Positions 8,147 through 62,633 of a stretch of DNA of 64,000 nucleotides are shown piece by piece. Within the stretch, counting starts at the first letter, position 1; each line of letters opens with the position of its first letter. Origin of the DNA: Thermoanaerobaculia bacterium (GTDB lineage: Bacteria; Acidobacteriota; Thermoanaerobaculia; Gp7-AA8). Made by a program: the position numbers and the translations under genes. The notes under the pieces were generated by a model. The model made no database searches, was not told where the DNA came from, and was given only the letters and a program-made list of their open reading frames with translations. Where the stretch lies: contig JADGNZ010000013.1 of assembly GCA_017883205.1 (NCBI GenBank), positions 62,001-126,000 on the forward strand, read 5' to 3'.

Positions 8147-8752
8147 CTACGATTCTTCGAGCGCCTTTCTGAAATCGCGTACGGCCTGGGTGAGCGTGCC
8201 GCGATCGAGCATCGAAGCGAGCAGTTCGACGTCGAGGTCAGGAAGGAGCCGGCTGCGCTGCGTTCGGGTAGGCGTTCCCCCCGCGAGAGCGTAGATTTCA
8301 ATGACTCCTTTGCGCCAGTACCAGACTTCGTCGACGCCCAGTTTGCGGTAAATCTCCAGCTTGTCGATGCCGCCCCGCGTCCACTCGACTTCGATCGCGA
8401 GTTGTGGGCTTTCCCGCGGCTCCGTTCCAAAGGTGTAGCACTCATCGGCTTCGGCGGCGCGTTCGTTCTCTTCTCTCGTCAGCGTCCAACTGCCGAAAGG
8501 TCTCACTTCGATGCCACGATCGATGCACCACGTCTCGAGAAGATGTCCGATGTACGACTTGATCCGCTCATGATCCTTCGACGGACTCATGATCTCGACT
8601 TCCCCCTTCAGATAGCTGATGCGCGGGGCCGAGTGATCGCCACGAATGTCGAGCAGGCGCTCGTAGTCTTCCCACGTGACATCGTGCATGACGATGATGT
8701 GATCGGCGTTCGACGTGTCGTCGTGTTCGCGAAGCGCGGCAGCCCTCGACAT
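8147..8752 (-). CDS. Uma2 family (DUF820) putative endonuclease
   Basis: A 201-residue protein of the Uma2/DUF820 family, which has a PD-(D/E)xK nuclease-like fold and no settled function. Visible features are the N-terminal 'TWEDYERLLDIRGD' region, SYLKGEVEIMSPSKDHE, the acidic core residues in PQLAIEVEW, and the conserved KLEIYRKLGVDEVWYWR segment near the C-terminus. The start ATG at 8752 is chosen because a TATACT box lies 6 nt upstream; a longer frame upstream has no sequence of its own character. It stands alone, divergent from nothing and 100 bp after the UbiA-like gene on the same strand. Confidence 0.8.
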   Translation of the reverse strand: MSRAAALREHDDTSNADHIIVMHDVTWEDYERLLDIRGDHSAPRISYLKGEVEIMSPSKDHERIKSYIGHLLETWCIDRGIEVRPFGSWTLTREENERAAEADECYTFGTEPRESPQLAIEVEWTRGGIDKLEIYRKLGVDEVWYWRKGVIEIYALAGGTPTRTQRSRLLPDLDVELLASMLDRGTLTQAVRDFRKALEES

Positions 8753-8856: not shown

Positions 8857-9768
8857 TCATTGGAGCCGCAAGAGTGCCACCACCATTGCCAGGCCGATGA
8901 CGGCGTACAACACGCGGTACCGTGCCTGCAGACGGCTGACGCTCGCGTAGGTGAGGCCCTCCTTGAGAGTCTCGCGCGACCAATAGAGTTGTACTGGATA
9001 TAGCGCGATGAGGGCCGCGAGTGGAAGGGGAAGAAGGCGCCCGAGGGCCAGCAGGAGCAGGATGACTTGCGCCATCGTGAAAAAGATGAGACTTGCGGCG
9101 AACGTGCGGCGCGGGCCGAAGATCACCGCGTTGGTCCTGATGCCATTGACGGCGTCGCCCTGATGGTCGCGGATCTCCTGGGTCAGGTGGCCGGCGACGA
9201 AGATCAGCGCGAAGAAGATGGCGATGGCGACGCCGCGACGGTCGACGGCACTGCCCAATGAGTAGCCGAGGAGGAAGTGCAGGATACCGCCGGCCAGATG
9301 AGTCACGGAGTTGAGGAGCGGCTTGCCTTTCCAATTGAATCGGGGCAGCGAGTAGAGGGCGCTCAATGTGGCAATCGCCAGCGACAGGCCGAGCGTGATC
9401 GGACCGAGGCGGCTGAAGAGAAGAAGACTGAGGACTAGCAGGCCGGCCGTCAGGACGCCCATCTCCCCGCGCCCGACTCCTCGGCTCGTGAACACGCGGG
9501 CCGCCTTGTTCGCGTCGGCGAGATCGGTGGTCAGGCCCGACCAGTCGTTGAGCATGAAGATGTGCGTCACCAGCAAGACGTTGGCGGACATGAGCATCAC
9601 CAGCGGACCGAGGTCCTGCACGGTGGGATGACGAAGAGCGAACGCAGCTCCAAGCAGCGGCGAGCCCTGAAGAACCAGGATGTCCTGCGGGCGCAGGCTG
9701 GAAAGATAGCGATGTGCGACAGCCTTAGCCGGCGGGGTGGGAACGCCCGAGGAGTTCATATTCGTCAT
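8857..9768 (-). CDS. UbiA family prenyltransferase-like membrane protein
   Basis: About 303 residues with eight or nine predicted membrane helices. It has both aspartate-rich motifs of UbiA enzymes: the first in MLNDWSGLTTDLADANK (NDxxDxxxD-like, slightly stretched) and the second in QEIRDHQGD (DxxGD). Such enzymes use Mg2+-bound isoprenyl diphosphates to prenylate an aromatic or polar acceptor, and some relatives are class I terpene cyclases. The chosen start is the ATG at 9768, so its 5' end overlaps the end of the upstream fusion gene by 44 nt, which implies coupling. A longer frame upstream only shadows that gene. The acceptor substrate cannot be read from sequence. Confidence 0.78.
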   Translation of the reverse strand: MTNMNSSGVPTPPAKAVAHRYLSSLRPQDILVLQGSPLLGAAFALRHPTVQDLGPLVMLMSANVLLVTHIFMLNDWSGLTTDLADANKAARVFTSRGVGRGEMGVLTAGLLVLSLLLFSRLGPITLGLSLAIATLSALYSLPRFNWKGKPLLNSVTHLAGGILHFLLGYSLGSAVDRRGVAIAIFFALIFVAGHLTQEIRDHQGDAVNGIRTNAVIFGPRRTFAASLIFFTMAQVILLLLALGRLLPLPLAALIALYPVQLYWSRETLKEGLTYASVSRLQARYRVLYAVIGLAMVVALLRLQ

Positions 9769-12472
9769 AGAGCCTAAGCCAGAGCGCGTACCCGACATCC
9801 TCGGACCAATAGTATCTGGAGAACGCCGCGGTGAGGTCGCCATGGTAGAGGAGCGGCGGATTCATTCGTATGAGGGCAAAGTCGTCCCTGGCGAGCTCGC
9901 GCAGCACCGCCCGGATGAGCACCGCGTCGGGCGGTGCGCCTCCGGAAGTCATCCTGCCCGCCAGCAGCCGGACGACGGACACCCAGATCTGCTGGCCTGG
10001 AACGTCCGTGCGCATTCGTGTCTCGGGCAGCTCCAGCGCGCAGCCGGCGTGGCGGAGTTCAGGGAGGCGCAGGATCAGGATCAGCGGCGTCTTTCGATAG
10101 TAGACCCATATCCGATCCTCGTTGACGAGAGGGCGAAGAGCGTTACAAAGCGCACGACCGGCCGGCGGCCGTTCTTCGAGAAGGAGCAAGAGCAGGTTCA
10201 TCTGGACGACAGTGTCGACAGGGTTCGGATCGGTGCCCGGAACGAGGCACTGGTAGGCTTCCCGTGGTGCGGGATACGTGCGGTAGAGGCCCTCGGGCGT
10301 GCGATACCGATCCATGGTCGCCAGTGCGGCCGTCAGCCGGCTCCGGTCGCTTCCGGGAGCGAGCCGCCAGACCAGAGCCGTATCGTCCGCATCCGGTGTG
10401 ATGACGCATCCAAGCGTCCCGATTCCAGGACCGTCAGGCAGGCCGTGGTAGCGCACCAATCCGGAGGGCTCGATCTGACTGGTCAGGTGTCGTCGGGCGC
10501 GCTGCAGGCTGTCTTCGAGGCCGCTCGTGGTGGCGACAGGATTGAGCAGGTCGACGAGGAGAGCGGTCAGGAAGGTGTTCATTTCCGGATGCGGATCCCG
10601 GAAGCGTGTGTCACTCGTGTAAGCGGTGAGCCAGTAACCCGGCGGCTGCTGATGCTCGCGAAGCCGGGCTGCCGCTCTCCCGAAGCTCTCGGTGAGATCG
10701 TTCTCTGCAGAGCGCTCCCCTTCTCCTGCCGATCGTCGTCCGCCCTCGGCTGACGGAGCGCCGCCCGCCGCCGGTGTAAGCACGGTCAGGGTTCGCTCTT
10801 CCAGGTAGTGACCCTCCCCTTTCCCGGAGGCCCAGGCGAAGGCGGTCAGATGGTGCTTGCCGGGAGCGAGGCTGGCTGTCTCGATCGGGATGCGCCAGCC
10901 GGCGTGACTCGCCTCGTGCAGCAAGTCGCGGACGTCGGCCCGATCGAAAAAAACGCTGGAGGCGACGCTCTGCTTGCCATCGATCGAGACGGCCACTTGT
11001 GCGGGCGTTGCGTCGCCGGCCAACGCCCAGCCGGCGACGAACGCCTCCTGCCCTGCGTGCACCTCGGAGGTGGCCCGCCCGCCGCTCTCGATGGCATCGA
11101 AACTTCCCCGCATGCGGACCGCCAAATCCGCTGGCGCGAAGCCGTGTTTCAAGGACGCGAGGAAGGATGCATTCCGCCATGCAAACGCGGCCTGCATGTC
11201 GTTCTCGAGCGGACCGCGGTCAGCGGCGTAGATCGGGAGATCGAGCGAGCCGGAGTACATGAAGGCGCCTATTGCTTCGATGGCGACAGCCACGGCGACC
11301 GCTGCCAGAAAGCACACCCGTCCGAAGCCGCGCAGTGCAGCGACCACGGGCACGAGCATCCATATGAGGAGCGGTAGAAGATCGGTCATGTAGCGCGGTC
11401 CCCAGGAGAGGCCGCCTCGCCAGTCGGCCTTGGCGTAGAGCAGGATCTGGATGACGACACAGGCGCCCATTGCCAGGGTGAGACCGCGCTCTTCGCGGCT
11501 GCGCGGCAGGTATCGCCAGGCCAGAACGAGGAAGATCAGAAAGGGTGAGAAGACGAGCAGTCCCCGAGTCGGGCTGACGAACAAACCGCCCACGCCGGTA
11601 AGCAGCTCGTGCTCAAAAAAGCGGGCTTTGCCGAGCAGCCCATAACCGCCACCGACATTGCCGGCAACATGCAGATTGTAGAGGAGCACCAGGACCACAG
11701 GCAGCGCCGCCGCGGCCAGGAGCGGCACCGCGCGGCGCCGGCCCGCCCAGAAAAGTCCGTAAGCCCCAAGTGCCGCCGCGAGGATGACGTCGGGCGGCCG
11801 GTTGCCGGCGATGAGCCCGAGCAGCAACCCCGCCGCAAGCGTCCGCGGCAAGGTGCACGGTGCGGTGAGGAACAGTAGAGCGCCGATCACCAGGAGCTCG
11901 GCCATCCCGTGCTGCCACAACGCCTGGCTGCTGATCACCCAGGTAGTGGTACCGAAGGCATACGCCAGCGTGAGCAGCAGTGCGATCGACGCCTTCGCCC
12001 GCCGGCGCAGCAGCAGATAGAGAAGCGACGCCGAGAGCGCGGCCACGAACGAGGCGGCCAGCTTCTCCATGACTCTCGCGACGTGATCGAGCCGCTGATC
12101 ACTCCAACCGCGGACATGAAGGTAAGCAACCGCGGGAAGGTAGAGCGGCGCGATGAGTACCGGCACCATCACCGGGTATAGCGAAACGATGTGGCCGTCG
12201 GGCCGATGCAGCATCCAGTACGCCCCCTCGCCTCGCCCCTGAGCCGCGACCTTCGCGACCGGATCGAGAAAGATGGTGTGGTACCGCAGGATCGCGAACG
12301 GCAGGTAGCGCGCCGGGTAGGTATCGCCTGCACTGATCGACCGCAGGTTGGCGTTATAGATCAGCAGACAACACAACCCGATCAGGATGCTCGCCCGCAG
12401 CCGATCCCATTGGCCGCCCTCGGCCTCGGGATGAGCGGCAGGCGCAGCGGTTTCACCGGCCGGCGGTGTCAC
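9725..12472 (-). CDS. GT-C-type membrane protein fused to a terpenoid-cyclase-like toroid domain
   Basis: A 915-residue fusion. The first ~420 residues have about ten membrane helices and resemble GT-C glycosyltransferases, with an early luminal acidic loop ISAGDTYPARYLPF. A beta-rich soluble domain follows at about 450-570 (VAGWALAGDATPAQVAVSID). The last ~320 residues look like an alpha-alpha toroid of the terpenoid cyclase/prenyltransferase type, containing ITPDADDTALVW. The DADDTA there (Asp 694, 696, 697) equals the DxDDTA acid motif of class II terpene cyclases. A second conserved-looking stretch is NPVDTVVQMN. The start is a GTG. The downstream UbiA-like gene overlaps its end. Glycosylation, cyclisation or simple scaffolding are all possible, and the domain calls are by pattern only. 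Confidence 0.65.
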   Translation of the reverse strand: MTPPAGETAAPAAHPEAEGGQWDRLRASILIGLCCLLIYNANLRSISAGDTYPARYLPFAILRYHTIFLDPVAKVAAQGRGEGAYWMLHRPDGHIVSLYPVMVPVLIAPLYLPAVAYLHVRGWSDQRLDHVARVMEKLAASFVAALSASLLYLLLRRRAKASIALLLTLAYAFGTTTWVISSQALWQHGMAELLVIGALLFLTAPCTLPRTLAAGLLLGLIAGNRPPDVILAAALGAYGLFWAGRRRAVPLLAAAALPVVLVLLYNLHVAGNVGGGYGLLGKARFFEHELLTGVGGLFVSPTRGLLVFSPFLIFLVLAWRYLPRSREERGLTLAMGACVVIQILLYAKADWRGGLSWGPRYMTDLLPLLIWMLVPVVAALRGFGRVCFLAAVAVAVAIEAIGAFMYSGSLDLPIYAADRGPLENDMQAAFAWRNASFLASLKHGFAPADLAVRMRGSFDAIESGGRATSEVHAGQEAFVAGWALAGDATPAQVAVSIDGKQSVASSVFFDRADVRDLLHEASHAGWRIPIETASLAPGKHHLTAFAWASGKGEGHYLEERTLTVLTPAAGGAPSAEGGRRSAGEGERSAENDLTESFGRAAARLREHQQPPGYWLTAYTSDTRFRDPHPEMNTFLTALLVDLLNPVATTSGLEDSLQRARRHLTSQIEPSGLVRYHGLPDGPGIGTLGCVITPDADDTALVWRLAPGSDRSRLTAALATMDRYRTPEGLYRTYPAPREAYQCLVPGTDPNPVDTVVQMNLLLLLLEERPPAGRALCNALRPLVNEDRIWVYYRKTPLILILRLPELRHAGCALELPETRMRTDVPGQQIWVSVVRLLAGRMTSGGAPPDAVLIRAVLRELARDDFALIRMNPPLLYHGDLTAAFSRYYWSEDVGYALWLRLYDEYELLGRSHPAG

Positions 12473-61610: not shown

Positions 61611-62633
61611 ATGAAAGCGATTCTGATTCGCGAGCACGGTGGCCTCGACAAGCTAACGATGGCCGATGTGCCTGACCCTGTCCCGCGGCCCGGCGAGGCG
61701 GTCGTGCGCGTCCGCGCGGTCGCTCTAAACCATCTCGATCTCTGGCTGCGCCGAGGAGTTGCGGGGCACACGTTTCCGCTGCCGATGATTCCGGGGTCGG
61801 AAGTGGCCGGCGTCATCGAGCATGTCGATGATCCGAACTGGCGCGCCGGCGACGAAGTGATCGTCGCACCCGGCTACTCCTGCGGTCACTGCATCGCCTG
61901 CCTCTCAGGGAACGATCCGCTCTGCCGCCACTACGGTCTCTTCGGAGAGACGATCAGCGGCGGTGCGGCGGAGAAGATCGCCGTCCCGATTCGCAATCTC
62001 ATCCGCAAACCGGCCGCGCTTTCGTTCGCCGAGGCCGCGGCGTTTCCACTCGATATGCTCACCGCCTGGCACATGCTCATCGCTCGTGCGCAGCTCCGCA
62101 TCGGCGAGACCGTTCTCGTTCACGCCGGCGGCTCCGGCGTCGGCAGCGCTGCAATTCAGATCGCAAAGCTGTTTGGCGCGACCGTCTACGCCACGGCGGG
62201 AACCGCCGGGAAAGCCTCACGCGCCCAAGCCCTCGGCGCGGACGCAACCATCGTCTACACCGAGACCGACTTTCTCGATGACGTGCGCCGCCTGACCGGC
62301 AAGCGCGGCGTCGACGTCGTCTTCGAGCACGTCGGCGGCGAGACGTTCGAGCGCTCGCTTCGCGCCCTGGCTCGCGGCGGCCGCCTCGTCACCTGCGGCG
62401 CAACGACGCGCGGCGAAGCAACCATCAACCTCCGCCTCGTTTTCTTCAAGCTCCTCTCAATCCTCGGCTCCACGATGGGCAGCCTGGCCGAGTTGCACCA
62501 GATCGTGAAGCTCGTCGAGCAGGGACGCCTGCATCCGGTGATCGACCGCATCCTCCCCCTCGCCGAAGTCGCCGAAGGACATCGCATCCTCGAAGCGCGG
62601 GAAGCGTTCGGGAAAATCGTGTTCGAGGTGTGA
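61611..62633 (+). CDS. Zinc-binding quinone oxidoreductase/alcohol dehydrogenase-like protein
   Basis: 340 residues, medium-chain dehydrogenase/reductase family. VRAVALNHLDLWLRRG (QOR-like opening) and PMIPGSEVAGVIE are visible, as are four cysteines of a structural zinc site in APGYSCGHCIACLSGNDPLC. The NADP fold contains VLVHAGGSGVGSAAIQIAK. The catalytic-zinc Cys is missing (NHLD where Cys would be), so a zinc-free quinone/enone reductase with a structural zinc is more likely than an alcohol dehydrogenase. The substrate is unknown. The start at 61611 follows a -10 box; upstream codons translate the inverted repeat. Confidence 0.87.
   Translation: MKAILIREHGGLDKLTMADVPDPVPRPGEAVVRVRAVALNHLDLWLRRGVAGHTFPLPMIPGSEVAGVIEHVDDPNWRAGDEVIVAPGYSCGHCIACLSGNDPLCRHYGLFGETISGGAAEKIAVPIRNLIRKPAALSFAEAAAFPLDMLTAWHMLIARAQLRIGETVLVHAGGSGVGSAAIQIAKLFGATVYATAGTAGKASRAQALGADATIVYTETDFLDDVRRLTGKRGVDVVFEHVGGETFERSLRALARGGRLVTCGATTRGEATINLRLVFFKLLSILGSTMGSLAELHQIVKLVEQGRLHPVIDRILPLAEVAEGHRILEAREAFGKIVFEV

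Follow-up and report, generated by a model that had tools for sequence, protein, structure and literature searches.

A GT-C-type membrane protein fused to a class II terpene cyclase-like toroid and encoded beside a UbiA-family gene in Thermoanaerobaculia and other bacteria

The active sites of UbiA prenyltransferases normally face the cytoplasm, and in the GT-C enzymes PglB and ArnT the parts that follow the last membrane helix are extracytoplasmic. Among class II terpene cyclases, merosterolic acid synthase MstE (6sbb) is a monodomain enzyme with a toroid of ~350 amino acids (aa); its substrate is a prenylated aromatic acid, which it protonates at the terminal double bond (PMC9401909). In the drimenol synthase AsDMS (9m7d), which is of the HAD-TC-beta type, the catalytic residues D331, D333 and Y427 are each essential by mutation (PMC12365925), while the catalytic residues of AstC are D271, D273, N324 and Y361 (PMC13244436). 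The locus described here lies in a 64,000-nucleotide stretch of DNA (the window; positions 62,001 to 126,000 of contig JADGNZ010000013.1, assembly GCA_017883205.1) from a Thermoanaerobaculia bacterium with a genome of 6.37 Mb. One open reading frame (ORF; 9725..12472 of the window, minus strand, GTG start) encodes a 915-aa fusion protein consisting of a GT-C membrane half, an Ig-like linker and a class II terpene cyclase-like toroid, an architecture shared by 21 complete relatives. A preliminary description of this DNA had placed such a fusion, with the motif DADDTA in its toroid, next to a UbiA gene. Both ORFs are indeed present, and the second (8857..9768, minus strand) encodes a UbiA-family prenyltransferase that matches PF01040.

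A search across genomes for the fusion and its UbiA neighbour, also proposed in that description, covered 84,980 species genomes and returned 22 loci; the fusion is complete in 21 of these, and the remaining one is a fragment at a contig end. The GT-C, Ig-like and toroid parts share one frame in all 21 complete loci, and the UbiA gene lies directly downstream in 20 of them. The exception (L040, in genome G011) has its UbiA orthologue elsewhere in the genome, in two pieces on other contigs. The loci come from Acidobacteriota, Tahibacter, Lysobacteraceae, Verrucomicrobiota and bins labelled Mesorhizobium, Variovorax and Chloroflexi; among named collections, the closest relatives of the window are genomes of Acidobacteriota (Thermoanaerobaculia, Holophagales) from metagenomes. 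Within the family, nine of 18 genomes have the toroid at E < 1e-120, each within an open frame of 888-970 aa, and in same-family relatives that lack the fusion a strong UbiA orthologue of this type was not found. A scan of viral contigs found no relatives of the fusion. Since the frame is kept in 21 complete relatives of several phyla, the Asp motif is conserved, and pairwise ratios of nonsynonymous to synonymous substitution (dN/dS) in the toroid are 0.16-0.34, the fusion is more than a chance event. Trees of the fusion and of the UbiA protein (15 shared rows) have 6 of 12 splits in common, against a mean of 0.13 and a maximum of 2 when the names are shuffled. Because this is far more than shuffled names give, the two genes are held to be inherited together, apparently also across phyla. 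Three contigs with relatives of the pair (L043, L047 and L049) are those from the bins labelled Mesorhizobium, Variovorax and Chloroflexi, where misbinning or transfer may account for their presence.

The toroid (residues 592-915; 9728..10699, minus strand) is predicted to have the alpha-toroid fold of the class II terpene cyclase beta domain. Its AlphaFold2 (AF2) model, built on 22 own-locus sequences, has a pLDDT of 85.6 and a pTM of 0.88, and was compared with known structures by Foldseek and VIA-align. The best match is the TC-beta domain of AsDMS (Z 23.7, 3.3 Å over 275 residues, 12% identity; Z 24.4 when the toroid is taken from the full-length model), followed by 6ij1 (Z 19.9) and MstE (Z 19.3), and then by monodomain enzymes resembling squalene-hopene cyclase, squalene-hopene cyclase itself (1sqc, Z 16.9) and class II diterpene cyclases. 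The toroids of glycosidases and epimerases reach Z 15.2 or less, at least 8 Z units under AsDMS. The toroid-like C terminus noted from the sequence is thus confidently predicted, with class II cyclase beta domains ranking first. The earlier doubt that ~320 residues are too few for a class II cyclase can be set aside, since monodomain class II cyclases exist, with MstE as one example, and the AsDMS TC-beta domain answers it too. Complement C3/A2M, listed by Foldseek, was rejected because the CGEQ thioester motif is absent from the sequence.

No Pfam or NCBIfam model matched the toroid, and an hhalign alignment of it to squalene-hopene cyclases was not used, the wrong repeat being aligned at low probability. 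A stand-alone toroid of Acidobacteriota (L016) aligns with the fusion family at an hhalign probability of 96%, with DADDTA on PDTDDTA, and itself has a weak match to squalene-hopene cyclase, again in register (PDTDDTA on PDVDDTA). Judged by alignment, such stand-alone toroids (L016 and L054) form a sequence bridge between the fusion toroid and squalene-hopene cyclase, of which the second half is weak. An ordinary squalene-hopene cyclase is apparently lacking in the host genome (G000), where neither SQHop_cyclase_N nor SQHop_cyclase_C (PF13249, PF13243) has a match.

Stand-alone toroids of this kind, ~325 aa long and with PDTDDTA or PDTDDS, occur in other Acidobacteriota (L016/L027 and L054). 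A sulfotransferase-type gene directly follows each (Pfam-tested for L016), and a radical-SAM-looking protein, by sequence reading, is also found near L027. These surroundings resemble natural-product clusters that include a class II cyclase-like enzyme of the monodomain type. Among the fusion toroids, that of L035 (genome G009) has ~40 extra in-frame residues (PRHPESAKRDEGSQNTKSLQFRDPSPSARLRMTG and neighbours) that resemble a translated interspersed repeat.

In the toroid model, the acid motif DADDTA (residues 694-699; 10376..10393, minus strand; consensus D[TAS]DDT) sits at the N terminus of helix 104-113 (DSSP), as it does in class II cyclases. Conservation of the Asp residues among homologues had been named as a test, and it is borne out: D694 and D696, together with T698, are found in 22 of 22 toroids, and D697 in 21, with Asn in its place in L033. 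Two further sites are candidate partners of the catalytic Asp, by a spacing argument only. Asn750 (10223..10225, minus strand), conserved in 21 of 22 toroids, is at +54 from D696, compared with +51 for N324 from D273 in AstC. The invariant pair Tyr791-Tyr792 (10097..10102, minus strand) is at +95/+96, compared with +94 for Y427 from D333 in AsDMS and +88 for the Tyr of AstC. Both sites lie close to the spacing seen in the published protonation network.

The GT-C_A glycosyltransferase half (residues 20-410; 11243..12415, minus strand) is assigned from structural matches. In sequence it matches the NCBIfam model LA_3751/LA_3752 putative glycosyltransferase with E 1.7e-15, which is below the model's cut-off. 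The AF2 model of the whole chain has a pLDDT of 81.5 and a pTM of 0.65, and its residues 16-443 match ALG12 (Z 24.2), yeast STT3 (8agb, Z 21.1) and ArnT (5f15, Z 18.9) over 332-342 residues, as well as AftB (Z 18.8) and PglB (Z 16.8); AglB, Pmt and AftA are also listed. Asp50 (12323-12325, minus strand), in the putative first external loop (EL1), is invariant in a 21-sequence alignment and may be catalytic, by likeness to GT-C enzymes. The WWD motif of the oligosaccharyltransferases STT3 and PglB was not found in the 915-aa fusion. An Ig-like beta domain (residues 454-566; 10775..11113, minus strand; beta strands 454-565 in the model) links this half to the toroid. The matched GT-C stretch ends at residue 409 of the model, and the corresponding ends in PglB (439) and ArnT (457) are close to where their membrane parts stop. 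Since the toroid comes after the final GT-C helix, it should be periplasmic by homology to PglB, STT3 and ArnT, and the Ig-like domain probably shares this location. Two cysteine pairs lend weak support: four toroids have lost both Cys742 and Cys776, in two independent events, and Cys452 and Cys486 are found together, in the same five relatives.

The UbiA-family protein matches PF01040 with E 4.5e-23 and 82.3 bits, against a cut-off of 34.2. Among other models, it fits a generic prenyltransferase (PRK12875, E 1.5e-16) far better than decaprenyl-phosphate phosphoribosyltransferase (E 0.0098). No sequence in the PDB matches it at E 0.01, even by profile. Both Asp-rich motifs had been reported for this protein, and here the description needs amendment at one of them. 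The second (QEIRDHQGD, of the form DxxxD; 9154..9180, minus strand) is intact, with E, D and D invariant in 16 sequences. The first (NDWSGLTTDLAD; 9514..9549, minus strand) reads NDxxGxxxD, in which N, D, G and the following D are invariant; an invariant Gly takes the place of the canonical middle Asp in 16 of 16 sequences, and the canonical NDxxDxxxD is not found. The overlap with the fusion gene also stands, at a smaller extent. The longest form of the UbiA ORF is 8857-9843(-), but in six of seven relatives this frame is interrupted by a stop just upstream of the ATG that matches 9768 or 9759, which led to the rejection of 9843 as the start. With the start probably at 9766-9768 or 9757-9759, the overlap is 35-44 nucleotides rather than 119. 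The GTG start of the fusion gene is an ATG in the aligned near relatives G002 and G003.

Together these features suggest a route in which the UbiA-like enzyme, working from the cytoplasmic face, would attach a prenyl chain to an acceptor and so form a membrane isoprenoid lipid. At the periplasmic face, the GT-C half would transfer a sugar from a polyprenyl-phosphate donor. In the toroid, Asp696, held by Asp694, Asn750 and Tyr791/792, would protonate the terminal double bond of the isoprenoid chain, starting a cyclisation, isomerisation or hydration that uses no metal or cofactor, and a surface lipid of isoprenoid type, both modified and glycosylated, would result. Because class II-type protonation needs neither metal nor nucleotide, such a step is chemically possible in the periplasm. 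The preliminary description had the enzymes prenylate, cyclise and glycosylate an isoprenoid. The GT-C fold, the class II-type toroid with its conserved acid motif and the constant UbiA partner support this in part. A single joint pathway for the three activities is more doubtful: UbiA enzymes normally act from the cytoplasmic side while the GT-C half and toroid should face the periplasm, so that prenylation and the other two steps would take place on opposite faces of the membrane. That the toroid is an active cyclase-type enzyme working with the GT-C half on an isoprenoid lipid has, in our estimate, about an even chance of being right. The fuller proposal is more tentative, possible rather than probable: an extracytoplasmic cyclase-type enzyme tethered to a GT-C glycosyltransferase that cyclises (or hydrates) and glycosylates the isoprenoid lipid which a dedicated UbiA enzyme provides, the whole being a surface-lipid pathway transferred as one unit between phyla. 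The joint inheritance of the two genes across several phyla points to an undescribed surface-lipid pathway. If the proposal is true, acid-initiated isoprenoid chemistry takes place outside the cytoplasm, and a new class of bacterial surface glycolipid is suggested. The idea is directly testable, since the pair is present in isolates with names, three Tahibacter species and Verrucomicrobium sp. BvORR034.

Several observations weigh against a periplasmic class II-type cyclase. The SQHop models PF13243 and PF13249 match none of the 22 members, a sequence-model criterion that defines neither fold nor chemistry, and no PDB sequence matches the fusion family in phmmer or profile searches. The class II terpene cyclases known to us are cytosolic or act at the inner face of the membrane. 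As hydropathy-based helix counting left the parity of the helices ambiguous, the topology is drawn from the alignment to GT-C structures and, weakly, from the cysteine pairs, whose two events are too few for a significant disulfide argument for the periplasmic side. Finally, the toroid of the window copy (residues 592-908; 9749-10699) differs at 9 of 136 columns that are fixed in eight close relatives (T695A, W733Y, L734P, D744V, I756V, H759N, P799L, D805E and N878G), compared with 2 of 129 in the nearest relative's toroid and 2 of 145 in the window's own GT-C half. The selection on this copy may be relaxed or shifted.

These changes at otherwise fixed positions, along with the D697N replacement in one relative, would suit a toroid that has kept the cyclase fold and lost the reaction, and that serves the GT-C enzyme only to bind a lipid or glycan. 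C-terminal periplasmic substrate-binding domains are common in GT-C enzymes, and this is the alternative that survives best, although we consider it unlikely. The invariant residues include D694, D696, T698, Y791, Y792 and many other polar ones, and the toroid is better conserved between the most distant groups (about 52-55%) than the GT-C half (about 43-45%). The D697 replacement itself carries little force, as a DxDT motif, such as that of AstC, does without this residue (PMC13244436). The toroid might also be an (alpha/alpha)6 sugar-processing enzyme (a hydrolase, lyase or epimerase) with the role of trimming or remodelling a glycan made by the GT-C half. Its structural matches include glucuronyl hydrolase 3wiw, methylmannose hydrolase MmpH, dextran dextrinase, mannosidases and epimerases, all at the level of fold only, and some loci adjoin glycan genes. 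The distance of these matches from AsDMS, and a DxDDT motif with Tyr and Asn partners that are those of class II cyclases, make this reading less likely still. Rv3806c is a member of the UbiA family. It is a phosphoribosyltransferase acting on decaprenyl phosphate (PMC10994848). The presence of AftB and AftA among the GT-C matches and of UbiA as the constant partner of the fusion might suggest that a polyprenyl-phosphate sugar donor is the product of the UbiA-like protein (compare Rv3806c with phosphoribosyl pyrophosphate) and is used by the GT-C half as in mycobacterial arabinan synthesis, the toroid being accessory, but this is improbable given the poor fit to the phosphoribosyltransferase model and a Dpm1-like GT2 in seven loci that could make the donor instead.

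That GT2 orthologue stands beside the pair, with about 40-83% identity between loci. Many loci also have a divergent giant gene, of which the scanned copy (L036) contains GT2, GT1 and sulfotransferase-like domains. An APS kinase (PF01583, E 8e-61; L047:11858-12424(-)) lies directly beside the UbiA gene in L047 and suggests that sulfation is linked to the pathway in that lineage. Because the GT2 and sulfotransferase neighbours occur in subsets of loci only and are absent beside the window copy, the core unit appears to be the fusion and UbiA. In a Pfam search, the genes around the window copy encode an M61 peptidase, a GNAT protein and an EamA transporter. A frame at ~8147-8750(-), between the UbiA gene and the M61 peptidase, resembles by eye a putative Uma2-type (DUF820) endonuclease-like protein.

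The fusion shares features with each of several known systems. We know of no GT-C_A glycosyltransferase with a terpene cyclase toroid, and the open-access literature yielded nothing relevant on a GT-C/terpene cyclase fusion or a periplasmic class II cyclase. Like the GT-C_A enzymes STT3/PglB, ArnT, AftB, ALG12 and Pmt, it has their fold, an Asp in the first extracytoplasmic loop and a C-terminal soluble part after the last helix; unlike the oligosaccharyltransferases, it has no WWD motif. Its partner resembles UbiA prenyltransferases in its family match and second Asp motif, and differs from them in the first. Squalene-hopene cyclase also has DxDDTA at a helix start and a matching toroid, but it consists of two domains and has no GT-C part. 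MstE has one toroid of similar size, is stand-alone rather than fused, and shows 18% identity in the structural match; by analogy, one might guess that the substrate of the fusion toroid also belongs to the prenylated aromatic acid class. In the AsDMS-type drimenol synthases (9m7d; PMC12365925), as in the fusion, a single beta-type toroid is joined to another catalytic domain, with a DxD acid motif and a Tyr at nearly equal spacing (D333+94 in AsDMS, D696+95 in the fusion). They have no detectable sequence match to the fusion and AsDMS is not known as periplasmic. The partner of the toroid is a soluble HAD phosphatase in AsDMS, while in the fusion it is a membrane GT-C.

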